Assembly: GCF_023716925.1 (NCBI RefSeq)
Contig: NZ_JAMQQG010000007.1
Location: 1 to 39,402, forward strand
Source: Frankia sp. R82
Lineage (GTDB): Bacteria > Actinomycetota > Actinomycetes > Frankiales > Frankiaceae
DNA: 39,402 nucleotides
Reading direction: 5' to 3'
The position numbers were made by a program, and so were the translations under genes. Under the pieces are notes generated by a model that worked only from the letters and a program-made list of their open reading frames with translations, was not told the DNA's origin and did not search any database. Shown piece after piece: positions 23,342 to 31,609 of this stretch; positions within the stretch are counted from its first letter, which is position 1; each line of letters opens with the position of its first letter.

Positions 23342-24286
23342 TCAGTGCGCGCCGAGGGGGACGATGACGTTCTCGGCGAAGCGGCGCATCCCCTCGATCG
23401 CCTCCCGGGAGCGGGTCCATGCCTGGACGATGATCCGGGTCACCCCGGCCTCGACATAGGGCTCGACGTCCTCGGGTCGCTGCACCTGGCCATGGACGGT
23501 GATCTCCAGCGGCTCGGTGCGTCCCGCGCGTTCGGTGAGGGCCCCCAGGCGTTCCAGCGACGCCGGCAGCTGCTCGAGGGTGTGGTTCATCGGCATCCAG
23601 CCGGTGCCGAACGTGGCGGCTCGGCGCAGTGCTGCCGGCCCGTCCCCGCCGATGTGCAGCGCCGGCCCACCCGGCCGCGTCGATCGCGGTTCGAACGTGA
23701 CCGGACCGAAGTCGAAGAACCGGCCGTGATGTTCGACGACCTCCTCCGTCCACAGTCGGCGCAGGACGTCGAGGGTCTCGTCGATCCGTGCCCCGCGGGT
23801 GTCGAAGTCGAGGTTCAACGCCTCCCACTCCGCCCGCAGCCAGCTCGCGCCGACCCCGAGGGCCAGCCGGCCGCCGGAGAGGATGTCCACCGTGGTCGCC
23901 GCCCGCGCGGTGAGGAACGGGTGGCGCAGACCGAGGTTGAACACGTTCGTACCGATGGTGATGTTCGTGGTTCGCGCCGCGATGAAGCTCAGCATGGCCA
24001 TCGCGTCGTGCACCGGGACGTTCGGCGGGATCGGCGGGTGGTCCGCGCCGGCGAACGGGCTCCCGCTGGTGTCGATCGGCACCACCACGTGCTCGGGCAC
24101 CCACACCGACTCGAAACCGAGCCGGTCCGCCTCGACCGCGACATCCACCCACGCCCTCGGGTTGACCGATCCCAGGTGCACGGCGAACGCCGGGGAGCGC
24201 ACCGTGGACCGGGAGGCGCCCGTCGGGCCGGCGACCGTGGCCGTTGGCGCACCCGAGGCTGCAGCGGGGGTGTGAGGCGAGGTCAC
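23342..24286 (-). CDS. LLM-class F420-dependent oxidoreductase
   Basis: 314 aa from GTG 24286 (VTSPHTPAAASG), with AGAGGA about 9 bp upstream; the first 30 residues are a disordered Ala/Thr/Ser lead. The luciferase-like TIM barrel is clear: WVDVAVEADRLGFESVWVPEH, MAMLSFIAARTTNITIGTNV, the family signature GGRLALGVGASWLRAEWEAL, IDETLDVLRRLWTEE, and GGPALHIGGDGPAALRRAA. The closest type is the TIGR03619-like actinobacterial F420 group, which oxidises alcohols or reduces C=C or imine bonds with F420/F420H2. It is divergent from the di-iron enzyme gene with 401 bp between starts, so shared control is possible. Confidence 0.92.
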   Translation of the reverse strand: MTSPHTPAAASGAPTATVAGPTGASRSTVRSPAFAVHLGSVNPRAWVDVAVEADRLGFESVWVPEHVVVPIDTSGSPFAGADHPPIPPNVPVHDAMAMLSFIAARTTNITIGTNVFNLGLRHPFLTARAATTVDILSGGRLALGVGASWLRAEWEALNLDFDTRGARIDETLDVLRRLWTEEVVEHHGRFFDFGPVTFEPRSTRPGGPALHIGGDGPAALRRAATFGTGWMPMNHTLEQLPASLERLGALTERAGRTEPLEITVHGQVQRPEDVEPYVEAGVTRIIVQAWTRSREAIEGMRRFAENVIVPLGAH

Positions 24287-24422
24287 GGGCACGGTCCTCT
24301 CGGTGGGCACGGTCCTCCGATGCTGGAGGCCCCATCCGGTTGTACCGCGGGCGGGCGTTGCCAGGCACGCGGATCGACGCCGCCACGGCCACCTGGGCGG
24401 CGTCCCACGTCGGCCCACGGCG

Positions 24423-24492
24423 GGCCGGTCCGCTGGCCAGGAACATGCATGGCCGGCGGACCGGCCGGCCAGGACCCCGTCGGCCGGTCCGC
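24423..24492. promoter_or_regulatory. Three GGCCGGTCCGC boxes in the divergent LLM / di-iron promoter region
   Basis: GGCCGGTCCGC occurs at 24423-24433, inverted at 24456-24466, and again direct at 24482-24492. The first two form an inverted repeat with a 22-bp spacer that contains ATGCAT. The position between two divergent starts (24286 and 24688) suits an operator. No binding protein is known. Confidence 0.45.
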
Positions 24493-24687
24493 GTGGGTGA
24501 GCTGGAAGCGCTGATGTGCCTGTGGGGTGCGGCTCGGTGCGGGCCGGATGGGGCCGTGGGATGCCGCGGGATAGCGGATGCGGATTGTGCGATTGCGAAG
24601 TGTGGATCACTGGTTGTCGGTGGGTGGCTGCCCGTTTACGGTATGGGCGGAACGGGCTGCGAGGAAATACCCAGGAGGGAATCTCCC

Positions 24688-25530
24688 ATGCCGACCGCCA
24701 TTCCGGAAACGGCCCACAGCTTCGAAGTATTCACGCATTATGAGCGCCTGCAGTGGAAGGTTTCCGACCTCGACCTCGGCAACATTCATCGCGAGCTCGT
24801 CCAGCCCGCCTACATCCCCCTGGTCAAGGGTGTGGTGATGGGTGAGGCCACCTCGCTTCCCGGCCTGCACGGCTTTCTCAGCGAGTTCGACGACGACTAC
24901 GACTGCTCGGCCTTCGTGGCCGTCTGGGCCTATCAGGAGCTCCAGCACCACTACGCGTTCCGGGCCTGGCTGCGGGGCGTCGACGTCCACATCGACCAGG
25001 CGAGGATCGAGGCGCTGCGTGAACCGTACGAGGCCGGCGTCACCCCGAGCGCGACGCTGACCACGAACGTTATTTCCGAAATCATTGTCAACACCGTCTA
25101 CCGGGCACTGTCGGAATGGGTGCAGGAGCCGGTTCTGGCTGACCTCTTCCTGCGGGCGAGCCGGGACGAGGCCGGGCACGCCCGCGAGTTTCTCTACTAT
25201 CTCAAGCGCCGCCTGGCGCAGCACCCGCACGAGCTGAAGTCCGTGCTGGAGCGCATCCACTTCTATGTGACGAGCGCCCGGCTCAACCACCCCGTGGGCG
25301 TCTACAAGCACCAGCGGGTGGAACAGATGCGGGGCTACGAGACCGTCGACGACGTCATCGACGTCTACCTCCAGATCTCCCCGCCCGACGCGCTGGACAG
25401 GCTGCAGGCCAAGCTCCGGCGGATGCTCGGGACGGCCGTCGGCCTCGACCTGAGCCGCAACTCGGCCATCCGGCACGCCATGGCCGACCTGGCCGTGGCC
25501 GAGACGCCTGTGCCCGAAGGAGTGTCATGA
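24688..25530 (+). CDS. Ferritin-like di-iron enzyme, acyl-ACP desaturase/oxygenase-like
   Basis: 280 aa from ATG 24688, with CAGGAGGGA 7 bp upstream, an excellent site. All-helical, with two ligand pairs in the spacing of carboxylate-bridged di-iron proteins: E84-xx-H87 (YQELQHH) and E161-xx-H164 (SRDEAGHAREF). E53 and E131 (NVISEIIVNTVY) are candidates for the remaining ligands. It is shorter than plant stearoyl-ACP desaturases (about 360 aa) and close to the size of bacterial ferritin-like oxidases. The ACP gene overlaps its last 4 bp (ATGA), so the likely substrate is an acyl or aminoacyl chain on that ACP. Desaturation, hydroxylation or N-oxidation cannot be told apart from sequence. Confidence 0.82.
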   Translation: MPTAIPETAHSFEVFTHYERLQWKVSDLDLGNIHRELVQPAYIPLVKGVVMGEATSLPGLHGFLSEFDDDYDCSAFVAVWAYQELQHHYAFRAWLRGVDVHIDQARIEALREPYEAGVTPSATLTTNVISEIIVNTVYRALSEWVQEPVLADLFLRASRDEAGHAREFLYYLKRRLAQHPHELKSVLERIHFYVTSARLNHPVGVYKHQRVEQMRGYETVDDVIDVYLQISPPDALDRLQAKLRRMLGTAVGLDLSRNSAIRHAMADLAVAETPVPEGVS

Positions 25531-25796
25531 CGACCGCGCCCGCGTCCCGCGACGAGATTCTCCGTACCGTCACCGAGATCGTGCACCGTGAGATCGGCAT
25601 CCCGCTCGACCGCCTTGCACCCGACTCCGACCTGCGTGGTGCCGAAGGTGCGGACTCGGTGAAGGTCCTCGTCATGATCTCGCGCGTCGAGCGCACCTAC
25701 GGTATCGAGATCGACGACCAGGACGTCTTCACCCTCTCCTCGATCAACGACGTCGTCCGCGTCGTACAGGCCGCCCGGTCCGAACCGGCGCTCTGA
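25527..25796 (+). CDS. Acyl carrier protein
   Basis: 89 aa. ILRTVTEIVHREIGIPLDRL, APDSDLRGAEGADSVKVLVM and YGIEIDDQDVFTLSSINDVVRVV match the four-helix ACP fold. S44 in ADSVKVL is the phosphopantetheine attachment site; Val replaces the usual Leu after Ser. The ATG overlaps the TGA of the di-iron gene, so the two proteins should be made in fixed ratio. No ketosynthase, acyl-ACP ligase or thioesterase is in the window, so loading and release would rely on enzymes elsewhere. This separates it from the fatty-acid synthase ACP, which sits among fab genes. Confidence 0.93.
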   Translation: MTTAPASRDEILRTVTEIVHREIGIPLDRLAPDSDLRGAEGADSVKVLVMISRVERTYGIEIDDQDVFTLSSINDVVRVVQAARSEPAL

Positions 25797-25963: not shown

Positions 25964-28303
25964 TCAGGTGGAGGTGAGCAGCACCAGCTGGCGGGTGGCG
26001 CGGGTCATCGCGACATAGCGGTCGACGGCGCCGGTGATGCCATCGCCGAAGCTGTCCGGATCGACCAGCATCACCAGGTCGAACTCGAGGCCCTTCGCCA
26101 GAGTCGGCGTCAGTACCTGGACGCGCGGGAACGCCCGCACCTGCGGCGAGGGCTGGAAACCGGCGGCGCCGATCACGCAGGCGGTGCCCTCGGCGTGTTC
26201 GTCCAGCCAGCCGGCCAGCATCGGCTCCAGCTCGGCCACGGCGGCCCGGGTGACGGGCAGGCCGCTGGCCCGGATGGACGTCGGCACGTTGGCGTCGGGC
26301 AGCGCGGCGCGGATCACCGGTTCGGCCTGGGCCATCACCTCCTGCGGCGTCCGGTAGTTGATGCTCAGACCGGCCAGCCGGATCTCGTCGAACCCGACCC
26401 GTCCCAGGCGTTGTTGCCACGACTCGGTGAAGCCGTTGCGGGCCTGGGCCCGGTCGCCGACGACGGTGAAACTGCGCGACGGGCAACGGGCGAGCAGCAT
26501 CTGCCACTGCACGTCGGTGAGTTCCTGCGCCTCGTCGACGACGATGTGCGCGAACGGCCCGGCGAGCAGGTCGGCGTCGGTGCGGGGCAGCGCGTCGGCG
26601 TCGACCAGGGCATCGCGCATGTCCTGGCCCATCAGCATGGTCGCCACCCCCTCGAAGTCGTCCTCGGCGGCGAGCAGGCCGTCGACGACATGGGACATCC
26701 GTTCCTGCTCGGCCGCGGCGGCGGACGCCTGCTCCCGGCGCCGCCGGGCGGCCTGCGGATCACCGAGTCGCTGACGGGCCAGGTCGAGCAACGGCAGGTC
26801 GGCGCTCGTCCACGCCCGGGCGTCGGCGCGCTGCAGTGCCGCGACCTCCTGCCGGCTCAGCCACGGCGCGCACCTGTGCAGGTAGGCGGGCACGGACCAC
26901 AGGTCGGCGACGATGTCGGGCGCGTCGAGCAGCGGCCAGGCCCGCGCGAACGCGGTGCGAAACCCCCGGTCACGCAGCAGCGCCGCCCGCAGCGCAGGGG
27001 CGGGAATCTCCTCGTAGCCGTCACCGTCCGGGTCGCCGATCCGGACGTCGGCGAACTTCTCCGCGAGGACGGTGAGCAGCTCCTCGAGGACCTGGTCGCG
27101 TGCCTCGTTGTGCGGAACACCGGCCTGCGCCGCGTCGAACCCCTGCGCCCAGTCATCGGCGGTGAGCCGGACATCCGACCACGGGGTCGAGATCGTCAGC
27201 GTGACGGTCGGCGGTTCCTCGTAGAAGGTGGCGGCACCGTCCATCGCCTCCACCCACCGTGCCGACGCCTTCAGCCGCTTCACCAGTCCGTCGTCGGTCC
27301 CGTCGTCGGTCCCGTCGTCGGTCCCGTCGTCGGTCACATCAGGGATGCCGGCGCTTTCGGGAACGCCGGCGCTCTCGGGGACGAGGTCGCGCAGGGTGCA
27401 GGTCTGCACGCCCTCTTCGCCAAGGCTCGGCAGGACGTCGGCGGTGTAGCCGAGGTAGGGCTGGTGCGGGCCGACGACCAGCACCCCGCCGCGCTGGCGC
27501 TGGCGCAGCCGCGGGTCGGAGTAGAGCAGGTAGGCGGCGCGGTGCAGCGCCACGACGGTCTTGCCGGTCCCGGGGCCGCCGTCCACGACGAGCGCGCCGC
27601 GCGACCCGGCCCGGATGATCGCGTCCTGGTCGGCCTGGATGGTGCCCAGCACGTCCCGCATCCGGGGCGAGCGGCTGGCGCCGAGGCTCGCGATGAAGGC
27701 GGACTGGTCGTCGAGCGCGGCGTGTCCCTTGAGTGCGCCGTCCCCGTCGATGACGTCCGCGGTGAAGACCTCCTCCCAGTAGTCGGTGATCCGGCCGAGG
27801 GTCCAGCGGTAGCGGCGCCGGCTCGCCAGCCCCATCGGGTTGGCGTGGGTCGCGCCGAAGAACGGCTCGGCCGCGGGGGAGCGCCAGTCGAGCAGCAACC
27901 GCCGCCCCGCACTGTCGAGCAGACCGAGCCGCCCGATGTAGACCGGCCCGTCCTGCCCGGGATCGTCGGTGTCGTCGAGCGCGCCGGCGCCGTCGCTCTC
28001 GGCCCCCGCGCCGACGTCGGCGCGGACCATCCGGCCGAGGCACAGGTCCAGGCCGAAGCGGCTCAGGGTGCCCAGGCGGGCGGTGAGGCGATGCACCTCC
28101 AGGTCGCGATCCATCGCCGCCTGGCCCTTGCCGCCGGGACCGCGCCGTGCCGCGACGAGACGCTCGGTGAGCTCGGCGATCTGCCGTTCGAGGGTGGCCG
28201 CGATCGCGGCGAAGTGCCGATCGTCGTCACCCACCAGGCCCTCGTCGGCCTTGGCCGCGAGATGCTCGGGAAGGTCGAACGCGCTGGTGGTGAGGGAGTT
28301 CAA
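25964..28303 (-). CDS. helR: HelR-type HelD-like ATPase that recycles RNA polymerase (rifamycin protection)
   Basis: 779 aa. It starts at TTG 28303 (MNSLTTSAFDLPEHLAAKAD), which is the N-terminus I expect for HelR; GGAG lies about 10 bp upstream. A coiled-coil arm (about 25-90), Walker A GGPGTGKT (242-249), VVDEAQELT (Walker B), INYRTPQEV and VLTPTLAKGLEFDLV plus YVAMTRATRQLVLL form the UvrD/HelD-type motor. HelR proteins of Streptomyces and Mycobacterium abscessus dissociate rifamycin-stalled RNA polymerase. The 19-bp inverted repeat at 28416-28434 matches the rifamycin-associated element that marks rifamycin-inducible genes. A four-copy 12-bp repeat adds a TDDG loop at 324-339. Generic HelD is the alternative. 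Confidence 0.9.
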   Translation of the reverse strand: MNSLTTSAFDLPEHLAAKADEGLVGDDDRHFAAIAATLERQIAELTERLVAARRGPGGKGQAAMDRDLEVHRLTARLGTLSRFGLDLCLGRMVRADVGAGAESDGAGALDDTDDPGQDGPVYIGRLGLLDSAGRRLLLDWRSPAAEPFFGATHANPMGLASRRRYRWTLGRITDYWEEVFTADVIDGDGALKGHAALDDQSAFIASLGASRSPRMRDVLGTIQADQDAIIRAGSRGALVVDGGPGTGKTVVALHRAAYLLYSDPRLRQRQRGGVLVVGPHQPYLGYTADVLPSLGEEGVQTCTLRDLVPESAGVPESAGIPDVTDDGTDDGTDDGTDDGLVKRLKASARWVEAMDGAATFYEEPPTVTLTISTPWSDVRLTADDWAQGFDAAQAGVPHNEARDQVLEELLTVLAEKFADVRIGDPDGDGYEEIPAPALRAALLRDRGFRTAFARAWPLLDAPDIVADLWSVPAYLHRCAPWLSRQEVAALQRADARAWTSADLPLLDLARQRLGDPQAARRRREQASAAAAEQERMSHVVDGLLAAEDDFEGVATMLMGQDMRDALVDADALPRTDADLLAGPFAHIVVDEAQELTDVQWQMLLARCPSRSFTVVGDRAQARNGFTESWQQRLGRVGFDEIRLAGLSINYRTPQEVMAQAEPVIRAALPDANVPTSIRASGLPVTRAAVAELEPMLAGWLDEHAEGTACVIGAAGFQPSPQVRAFPRVQVLTPTLAKGLEFDLVMLVDPDSFGDGITGAVDRYVAMTRATRQLVLLTST
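27289..27336 (-). repeat. 12-bp in-frame tandem repeat inside helR (TDDG x4)
   Basis: Four head-to-tail units of CGTCGTCGGTCC (plus strand) at 27289, 27301, 27313 and 27325; the last differs by one base. They code for Thr-Asp-Asp-Gly repeats in a loop after the Walker A domain, with an adjacent VPESAG duplication near 27345-27380. Confidence 0.92.
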
Positions 28304-29640: not shown

Positions 29641-30100
29641 GTCGGGCTCCTCCCGCAGAGGGTGATGGCCGCCGGTACGGAGAGTTCTACCAGAGTGGGA
29701 AGGCGTCGGGATGCTCGCTTTCCTGGCTTCCTGCTGGCCGTCGGTGGTCAGTGCTCGTGGGTGGTGAACGCTCGGCGGATGATGCTGCTTCTGCTGGCTG
29801 ACCGGGCCGCGACCGCGTCGGGCTCGGCCAAAGCCGGGTCGGGACCATCGCGCCCCAGTACGCAGCCGCCAGCAGTCGCGTTCCGGTCCCGCCCACTACC
29901 GTTTCGGTACGCGGATTCTTGGTTCCGGGCATATCGCGAGTTTTTCGCTCACCGCGCACCGTCATTTGTTCGGACCCTCGTTCCGGCATCAGACCTTCGT
30001 GCCATTGACGCAGAGACCGGCATCACGGTAGAAACCGTCTACCCGTCGGTAATATCCGATGTCCGCGGTGGATCATTGGATTCTGATGCAGGGAGAACTG
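29641..30100. other. Intergenic region before the hydrolase-like lipoprotein
   Basis: 460 bp between divergent genes. Several short frames exist without codon bias. The right part (29920-30090) is AT-richer than its surroundings and is the likely promoter region of the lipoprotein gene. Nothing else recognised. Confidence 0.5.
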
Positions 30101-31609
30101 ATGTCCCGAATGCGTTCTGCCGCGGCCGCGGCAGCAGTCGCGATAGGCTTGGTCATGGTCGGTGCCTGTGCGCCGGGAGGCCCACCGTCAGCGGTGTCGG
30201 CGGCGGCGGAAAATCATTTATCGCATCCCGCACCCACCGCCGTCGTGCCGACCATACAAGGTCCCATTGCGAATCCACGCCAGACGGACTACGCCAGCTA
30301 CCCGTTGGACAAAATCGGCTACGCGGAATCAGAATTTTTCTTCTCCGGGACCGCCAGGGCATATTCTTCCGCGACCGCACTCGCCTCGGACGGTAAGTGG
30401 AAGGTGCAGCCCGGGGCGTCCGCGGCCTACCGGTCCCGGCTGACCGTCCTGCAGCCGACCGACCCGGCGAAGTTCAGCGGAAACGTCGTGGTCGAATGGT
30501 TCAACGTCACCTCCGGCCAGGACGCGAGTCCGGACTGGGCGTACGGTCACGACGAGATCGTCCGTAACGGCGATGTCTATGTCGGTGTCTCGGCGCAGGA
30601 GGGCGGCGTCAACCAGCTGAAGAAAGGGGACCCCGACCGCTACGGCACGCTGGTACACCCGGGTGACAGCTTCGCCTACGACATCTTCTCCCAGGCCGGC
30701 ATGGCGGTGCGCGCCCGCACGGCGACCCTGTTGCCCGGGCTGGCTCCCACAGTGATCCTCGGCGACGGCCAGTCGCAGTCCGCGACCGCCCTCACCACCT
30801 ACGTCAATGCCGTCGCGCCGACGGCCAACGTCTTCGATGGCTACCTCATCCACAGCCGGGCCGGCACCCCGTTGGCGCTTTCCCAGTCGCCGCAGACCAG
30901 GATCAGCGCGCCGTCGGGGACGCGGATCAGGGATGACCTGGCGGTACCGGTGTTCGAGCTGCAGACCGAGACCGACGTGCTGGGAATCATGCACTTCCTC
31001 CCGGCAAGGCAGCCGGACACTGGTCGGTTGCGACTATGGGAGGTGGCCGGCACAGCACACGTCGACACCTATGTCGCGGTGCAGTCGACCAACGACGACA
31101 CCGGCTGGGGTTCCGATCTTGCCCAGTTCGCGTCGATGAGCTCCCCACCGTCCGGTCTGAACGTGACCCTGCAGTCGGGACCGCTCAAGCTGAGCTGCTC
31201 GGGAAATCTGAACACCAGCCAGCACCACTACGTCTACCAGACCGCCCTGCACGATCTCGCCGTCTGGGTACGGACCGGTACCGAGCCGCCGCACATGCCG
31301 CCGCTCACGGTCGACACGTCAGGGTCGCAGCCGGTCTTCTCACTCGATGCCGATGGTAACGTCCTGGGCGGAGTTCGCACGCCGGCCGTCGATGCTCCGG
31401 TCGCCACCCTCAGCGGCCTGCCGGTCAAATCGACACTGGATTTCTGCATCTTCTTTGGGCAGACGCATCCGCTGACACCCGGCAGGCTTTCCGCCCTCTA
31501 TCCGACACACCAGGACTTCGTGCAGAAGTGGAAAAGCGCCGTGGCCAGCGCTCTGAGCGCCGGCGCGCTGCTGCCCGCTGACGCCAGGATTCTCACCGAC
31601 GTGGTCTGA
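30101..31609 (+). CDS. Exported alpha/beta-hydrolase-domain lipoprotein (Abhydrolase_10-like)
   Basis: 502 aa from ATG 30101, with GGGAG 7 bp upstream; an earlier ATG at 30059 would bury the signal peptide. MSRMRSAAAAAAVAIGLVMVGAC is a lipoprotein signal with lipobox VGAC (C23). The mature protein carries VVVEWFNVTSGQDASPDWAY, VGVSAQEGGVNQLKKGDPDR, VILGDGQSQSATALTTYVNA (nucleophile Ser in GQSQS) and a late His in EVAGTAHVDTY. These match the large actinobacterial family annotated as alpha/beta hydrolase domain-containing proteins. It probably hydrolyses esters outside the cell; the substrate is unknown. No linked transport genes. A strong palindromic hairpin follows the stop. Confidence 0.88.
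   Translation: MSRMRSAAAAAAVAIGLVMVGACAPGGPPSAVSAAAENHLSHPAPTAVVPTIQGPIANPRQTDYASYPLDKIGYAESEFFFSGTARAYSSATALASDGKWKVQPGASAAYRSRLTVLQPTDPAKFSGNVVVEWFNVTSGQDASPDWAYGHDEIVRNGDVYVGVSAQEGGVNQLKKGDPDRYGTLVHPGDSFAYDIFSQAGMAVRARTATLLPGLAPTVILGDGQSQSATALTTYVNAVAPTANVFDGYLIHSRAGTPLALSQSPQTRISAPSGTRIRDDLAVPVFELQTETDVLGIMHFLPARQPDTGRLRLWEVAGTAHVDTYVAVQSTNDDTGWGSDLAQFASMSSPPSGLNVTLQSGPLKLSCSGNLNTSQHHYVYQTALHDLAVWVRTGTEPPHMPPLTVDTSGSQPVFSLDADGNVLGGVRTPAVDAPVATLSGLPVKSTLDFCIFFGQTHPLTPGRLSALYPTHQDFVQKWKSAVASALSAGALLPADARILTDVV

Follow-up and report, generated by a model that had tools for sequence, protein, structure and literature searches.

A ferritin-like protein paired with an acyl carrier protein in Frankia, probably a reduced paralogue of a larger fatty-acyl tailoring cluster

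The window, that is, the whole stretch of 39,402 nucleotides of Frankia sp. R82 that was analysed (contig NZ_JAMQQG010000007.1), contains a pair of genes encoding a ferritin-like protein, designated FER, and an acyl carrier protein (ACP). The features of this locus are collected in Table 1, together with the proteins of a related locus that this genome carries on contig C99. The overlap of the two genes by ATGA, described in an earlier note on this DNA, was found at 25527, where the FER stop codon and the ACP start share these four bases. A scan for sigma-70 promoters upstream of the pair found none. All 38 genes of the window, called by script, were scanned against Pfam, and no AMP-ligase, ketosynthase or hotdog thioesterase was recognised among them, in agreement with the earlier statement that the surroundings hold no synthase, ligase or thioesterase gene. 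A gene whose product falls in TIGR03619, a subfamily of F420-dependent LLM oxidoreductases (23342-24610, minus strand), lies divergently from FER, and the gene of the RNA polymerase recycling ATPase HelR (NF041254, 1130 bits; 25964-28303, minus strand) lies directly downstream of the pair and convergent with it.

Table 1. Features of the FER-ACP locus in the window and proteins of the related locus on contig C99.
Feature	Location	Strand	Remarks
Ribosome-binding site AGGAGG	24673..24678	+	9 bases upstream of FER ATG
FER, 280-aa ferritin-like di-iron protein	24688..25530, stop included	+	Predicted acyl-ACP oxidase/desaturase-like
Ligand E53 codon	24844..24846	+	Invariant in 61/61 aligned rows
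E84-L-Q-H87 codons	24937..24948	+	E84 and H87 invariant in alignment
Ligand E131 codon	25078..25080	+	Opposite E150 of FER2 in profile comparison
E161-A-G-H164 codons	25168..25179	+	E161 and H164 invariant in alignment
ACP, 89-aa acyl carrier protein	25527..25796	+	PF00550, E 1e-14; ATGA shared with FER stop
ACP Ser44 codon, predicted phosphopantetheine attachment site	25656..25658	+	D43-S44 in 56/56 aligned ACPs
Alpha/beta hydrolase	30059-31609 (window)		PF20091
C99 PPTase-type protein	L004		PF01648
C99 acyl-AMP ligase (FAAL)	L004		PF00501
C99 hotdog thioesterase (TE)	L004		PF03061
C99 CMAS-family methyltransferase (MT)	L004		PF02353, E 1.5e-41
C99 FER2, second ferritin-like protein	L004		PF03405, E 1e-14

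FER has two ExxH motifs and two further glutamates, which is the ligand set by which a ferritin-like di-iron carboxylate protein is recognised. The motifs E84xxH87 and E161xxH164 were located in the 280-aa protein exactly where they had been noted before, and E53 and E131, unnamed earlier, completed the set. All six ligands were conserved in each of the 46 full-length Frankiaceae copies, and they were identical in every row of a wider, 61-row alignment, to which these 46 sequences contributed together with a copy interrupted by an in-frame stop, 12 sequences of family f4 and two Burkholderiales outgroups. The full-length Frankiaceae copies were 261-296 aa long, and a GGAG/AGGAG-like stretch preceded the FER start in most of the 12 loci compared. 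Window-type relatives of FER showed 76-93% identity, so that the reading frame is no accident; in a collection of named genomes, seven near-full-length matches and one partial match were found, all of them in Frankia. An AlphaFold model of FER (7 sequences, at least 85% identical to the first) had a mean pLDDT of 39 and a pTM of 0.24 and was unusable.

The kinship of FER was examined by family models and profile comparison. In Pfam, the window protein matched no desaturase model and only weakly matched PF02915 Rubrerythrin (E 1.3e-5); among 20 family members, Rubrerythrin was matched by 15 and PF03405 by none. The best match of the FER profile among solved structures was DesA2 (1za0; E 1.3e-4), covering the middle of the protein only, followed by a de novo designed helix bundle (E 2.1e-4); with the single FER sequence, DesA2 (E 0.051) ranked behind this same bundle. 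A DNA search of the genome to which the window belongs revealed a second FER copy, 53% identical, on contig C99, in the order PPTase-FAAL-FER-thioesterase-ACP-methyltransferase-FER2-P450. The second ferritin-like protein of this locus, FER2, matched DesA2 (1.2e-12) and plant acyl-ACP desaturases, among others. When the FER and FER2 profiles were compared (probability 94%, E 9.8e-8), E84/H87, E131 and E161/H164 of FER stood opposite E98/H101, E150 and E180/H183 of FER2. A separate PF03405 desaturase of the same genome is encoded on contig C244 (E 3.1e-62).

Among solved structures, the ligase of the C99 locus was most similar to three chains that bear the label polyketide synthase (E between 3e-72 and 5e-72), followed by the fatty acyl-adenylate ligase 3pbk (3e-68), FadD23 (2e-62), FadD32 (3.5e-59) and FadD28 (3e-43), and 4-coumarate CoA ligases appeared only from 4e-25. 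Judged by these similarities, it is a putative FAAL, nearer to fatty acyl-AMP ligases than to CoA ligases. Altogether, 59 full-length FER loci were collected: 17 of the window type, including the window itself, two intermediates (L059 and L060) and 40 of the cluster type, the last comprising 28 from Frankiaceae and 12 from f4. This set leaves out truncated or fragmentary FER genes (L012/L061, L062 and the pieces of G033) and includes the copy with the in-frame stop, L055, which is not one of the 46 full-length Frankiaceae copies. With genes of the survey genomes called by a codon-model script and not by an annotation pipeline, a complete same-strand FAAL-FER-TE-ACP-MT-FER2 group was present in 33 of the 39 cluster-type loci that could be assessed, the 12 of f4 without exception; the exceptions elsewhere were four loci without TE (L063-L066), one without FAAL (L067) and one with the genes on the opposite strand (L082). 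MT and FER2 followed within about 2.1 kb in 38 of these 39 loci, L082 again having them on the opposite strand, and P450s often accompanied the six-gene core. No description of this core was found in the open-access literature searched, nor did a search of open-access text by ACN14a locus tags, guessed from position, find papers on the cluster.

The methyltransferase of the core deserves separate consideration. In cyclopropane fatty acid synthase, a Cys, a Glu and a His serve to bind bicarbonate. In columns placed by alignment, the Glu was replaced by Val and the His by Ser or Thr in all 41 MT sequences; the Cys column held Ser or Ala in 39 and Cys in two, and the Tyr was retained in all 41. 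Despite the strong PF02353 match, MT therefore lacks the residues by which a cyclopropane fatty acid synthase is recognised, and the idea of a cyclopropane product, to which the CMAS match had first pointed, was rejected in view of the substitutions at the catalytic Glu and His. Methylation other than cyclopropanation appears more likely for the same reason.

The failure of the acyl-ACP desaturase model to recognise FER leaves some room, although not much, for a BioE-like enzyme, which would oxygenate or cleave the chain on an acyl-ACP instead of desaturating it. According to PMC12915131, BioE is a soluble ferritin-like di-iron oxygenase, as FER would be, with the ligand order E-ExxH-E-ExxH; it acts on long-chain acyl-ACP and converts it to pimeloyl-ACP, so that cleavage is possible in a ferritin-like protein. 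However, the ligands E41, E68xxH71, E140 and E170xxH173 given there do not match the spacing of FER (53/84/87/131/161/164): 72 residues separate E68 from E140 in BioE and 47 separate E84 from E131 in FER. On this spacing, as far as the accessible text of PMC12915131 allows, identity of FER with BioE of biotin synthesis was rejected. Moreover, FER aligned to DesA2 and FER2, and a Pfam scan of the genes around the window copy and the C99 copy recognised no biotin gene. Desaturation by FER, rather than hydroxylation or cleavage, would be the reaction that we infer.

The distribution of the family was surveyed with the 20-row FER profile at the levels of class, family and phylum, the survey genomes being samples of larger groups. 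In the class survey (393 genomes), the Frankia family was represented by 35 genomes, and 30 of these had a FER homologue, although G006 and G033 showed no more than fragments of it. Beyond this family, there were one strong match (G361) and two weak partial ones. The family of G361 gave strong matches in 12 of 301 genomes (11 of genus g37 and one of g122) and four weak partial matches, and the phylum survey (396 genomes) yielded the window's own genome and two weak partial matches. Weak partial matches (G055, G085, G045 and others; G347, G255, G614 and G397; G706 and G717) were not counted as members. A scan of viral contigs found no relative, and tblastn against plasmids found four distant places in Burkholderiales with 26-28% identity; an origin from a phage or plasmid was rejected on these results. 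On a Methylibium petroleiphilum plasmid (L119:7279-9831), genes for an HDO-like iron enzyme (PF14518), a crotonase and the distant FER homologue lie in a row. On a Burkholderia plasmid, a membrane desaturase gene adjoins the FER relative, and an acyl-AMP ligase and an ACP are encoded within 9 kb (script-called genes).

The history of the window copy was then read from its sister loci. In a maximum-likelihood tree of the 61 rows, the window FER belonged to a 17-row clade (100/100), which together with L059 and L060, where FER lies beside a full cluster on the opposite strand, made up a clade of 19 rows (100/100) with a long branch leading to it. TE followed FER in seven of the 17 window-type loci, the window strain not being one of them, and FER2 did so in two (L047 and L048); no FAAL or MT of the cluster was found near FER in any of the 17. 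The presence of TE among these rows required at least three state changes on the FER tree, and the TE of the sister locus L043 had one match in the window genome, namely, the C99 TE, with 59% identity. These three results, i.e., the tree, the state changes and the TE match, suggest that a FER-TE-ACP(-FER2) unit was the ancestor from which the window pair arose by shortening. The earlier idea of a self-standing minimal module was therefore not sustained: the pair appears to be a reduced paralogue, with ligase, PPTase, thioesterase, methyltransferase and FER2 encoded on C99, and some sister loci still keep TE or FER2.

Reduction of this kind raises the question of whether the window copy is a decaying relic retained by chance after the loss of its partners. 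TE and FER2 are missing in the window, the surroundings of window-type loci vary between lineages, and FER is broken in some strains. In Frankia sp. QA3, whose loci L055:9147-9956 and L011:8001-8810 are probably one genome, an in-frame TGA stands at the invariant Trp94 of an otherwise intact window-type FER. In F. nodulisporulans, only the FER residues from about 205 on remain, beside pieces of an IS66 transposase, with an intact ACP. These two cases suggest that the window-type copy is dispensable in some strains. In the window, by contrast, NG86 dN/dS against six orthologues was 0.07-0.13, which points to purifying selection, and the six ligands, the start, the ribosome-binding site and the ACP serine are all intact, so that decay is an improbable explanation. 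Among the varied surroundings, G005, which we take to be F. alni ACN14a, carries a window-type FER-ACP pair (L054:2356-8818) just downstream of genes for a PEP mutase, a TPP-enzyme, an Fe-ADH and an aminotransferase, a phosphonate-like set. A 63-residue FER fragment (L062) was also found near homologues of these phosphonate-like genes.

The window ACP has the family match and the conserved serine in a DSL/DSV motif by which an acyl carrier protein is recognised, the residue following D43-S44 being V in 53 and M in three of the 56 aligned ACPs; it shares 52% identity over 75 aa with the C99 ACP. The pair was sought in other genomes, as had been proposed earlier. A same-strand ACP gene was located within 0.9 kb after FER in 52 of 57 assessable loci (14 window-type and 38 cluster-type), i.e., 56 mapped loci and the window, with L046 and L078 omitted since the contig ends soon after FER. 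In L059, L060 and L082, the ACP gene lies in the neighbouring cluster on the opposite strand, and only the window-type loci L057 and L058 have FER without any ACP in 19.5 kb. Homologues that never pair with an ACP were thus not what was found, and this pairing supports the earlier suggestion of a di-iron enzyme tied to an ACP and probably working on a carrier-bound chain. If the two genes were only a co-inherited operon fragment and FER did not use the adjoining ACP, loci such as L057 and L058, and G006/L012, which keeps the ACP after the loss of most of FER, might be expected; since two families share the same-strand pair, and its surroundings vary, such an arrangement seems slightly less probable still than decay.

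AurF has an additional histidine, which precedes its last ExxH by four residues. Least probable of all is that FER is an AurF-like N-oxygenase of an ACP-tethered amine or amino acid: three of the 20 members (best E 6.6e-4; the window protein not at E 0.1) and two Burkholderiales relatives match PF11583 weakly, but the latter score 24.8 and 23.0 bits, under the Pfam cut-off of 29.6, the place of the additional histidine is taken by an alanine (Ala157) in all 59 rows of the family, and the partner ligase is FAAL-like and not an amino-acid adenylating enzyme.

Taken together, the alignment of FER with FER2, the weak match to DesA2, the pairing with ACP and the presence of FAAL support FER as a di-iron enzyme related in function to acyl-ACP oxidases. 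It probably oxidises, and most likely desaturates, a fatty chain held by ACP, the pair being a reduced paralogue of the FER-TE-ACP core of the larger cluster. The gene pair, the ligand set, the paralogue cluster, its conservation and the absence of TE in comparison with the sister loci are what can be read from the sequence. In the proposed mechanism, the ACP would be activated by a PPTase and loaded by FAAL or by fatty-acid synthase, FER would act on the fatty chain while this is bound to the phosphopantetheine arm of its ACP, and a TE would release the product. Since neither TE nor FER2 lies beside the window pair, activation, loading and release would come in trans, presumably from C99. The earlier note had left open whether a specialised lipid or an amino acid is tailored; because the partner ligase is FAAL-like, a lipid is favoured and an amino-acid substrate disfavoured.

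Several known systems resemble parts of this arrangement. Plant stearoyl-ACP desaturases carry the ligand set E-ExxH-E-ExxH. Like these enzymes and DesA2/DesA1, FER is ferritin-like and has this set, and its gene sits with that of an ACP. The DesA and plant desaturases belong to PF03405, as FER2 does, whereas FER, with 261-296 aa, was not matched by this model, and its match to DesA2 is confined to the middle of the protein. Mycobacterial meromycolate tailoring employs FadD32, AcpM, DesA1/2 and MmaA/CmaA. It is similar to the Frankia core in having a FAAL, an ACP, ferritin-like desaturases and a CMAS-family methyltransferase on an ACP-bound chain; however, the Frankia genes form one compact six-gene group, and their MT lacks the bicarbonate-binding Glu and His. 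A third comparison concerns JamABC/polyyne cassettes; we take IPR005804, used in a screen for them, to denote membrane-type desaturases. PMC8406139 describes cassettes in which a free-standing ACP receives its fatty acid from a FAAL, with more than one desaturase, a thioesterase and, in some actinobacteria, a P450, and a screen by IPR005804 desaturases and rubredoxin. The Frankia core differs in its two ferritin-like proteins and CMAS-like methyltransferase: the former have their matches in Rubrerythrin (FER) and PF03405 (FER2) instead of PF00487, and so fall outside the cassette definition of that paper.

One of these loci lies near genes associated with symbiotic Frankia. Table 1 of PMC10252897 is a list of genes that Frankia clusters 1-3 have retained and cluster 4 lacks; FER itself does not appear in the portion of the list available. 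At the large cluster of L071 (G005:C1:3445000-3464500), a gene for an FAD oxidoreductase (L071:17340-18575, 411 aa) starts exactly at the place of FRAAL3191, and a LysR gene overlaps the place of FRAAL3189 (PMC10252897). These two listed genes, in one Frankia genome, tie the surroundings of the large cluster to the symbiotic lineages. Upstream of the large cluster, L071:4167-6676 encodes a protein with weak likeness to AMP-ligases, together with a reductase of the LuxC/aldehyde-dehydrogenase type (PF05893); homologues of these genes also occur in L068 and L077 and hint at the formation of an aldehyde or alcohol. A second FAAL cluster of the same genome (L159:7251-13437; G005:C1 about 3738250-3744440) comprises a membrane desaturase (PF00487), an ACP-like protein, a CFAS-like protein that keeps the Glu-His pair, a P450, a FAAL and a hotdog-TE-like gene assigned by reading only, and its positions fit FRAAL3449, 3451 and 3453 in the PMC10252897 list. 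The possibility that FRAAL3449-3453 are the FER cluster was rejected, as the cluster at that place is another one and encodes a membrane desaturase; other enzyme families seem to provide a parallel solution there.

A wider reading is advanced only tentatively. FER may found an unrecognised family of ACP-dependent di-iron oxidases. In concert with FER2 and MT, the latter of CMAS family but without the residues for cyclopropanation that it once had, it may lead to an oxidised, methylated fatty-acid product common to Frankiaceae and another family of actinobacteria; the window pair would then be a split-off second FER-ACP line, the 17-member clade with a long branch of its own, serving a different tailored acyl-ACP. 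Since the desaturase model of Pfam does not recognise this family, automated annotation can hide FER. An odd two-gene observation has thus become a pathway that is defined and open to testing, with a conserved FAAL-ACP cluster that combines two different ferritin-like di-iron proteins with a CMAS-like methyltransferase devoid of cyclopropanation residues.
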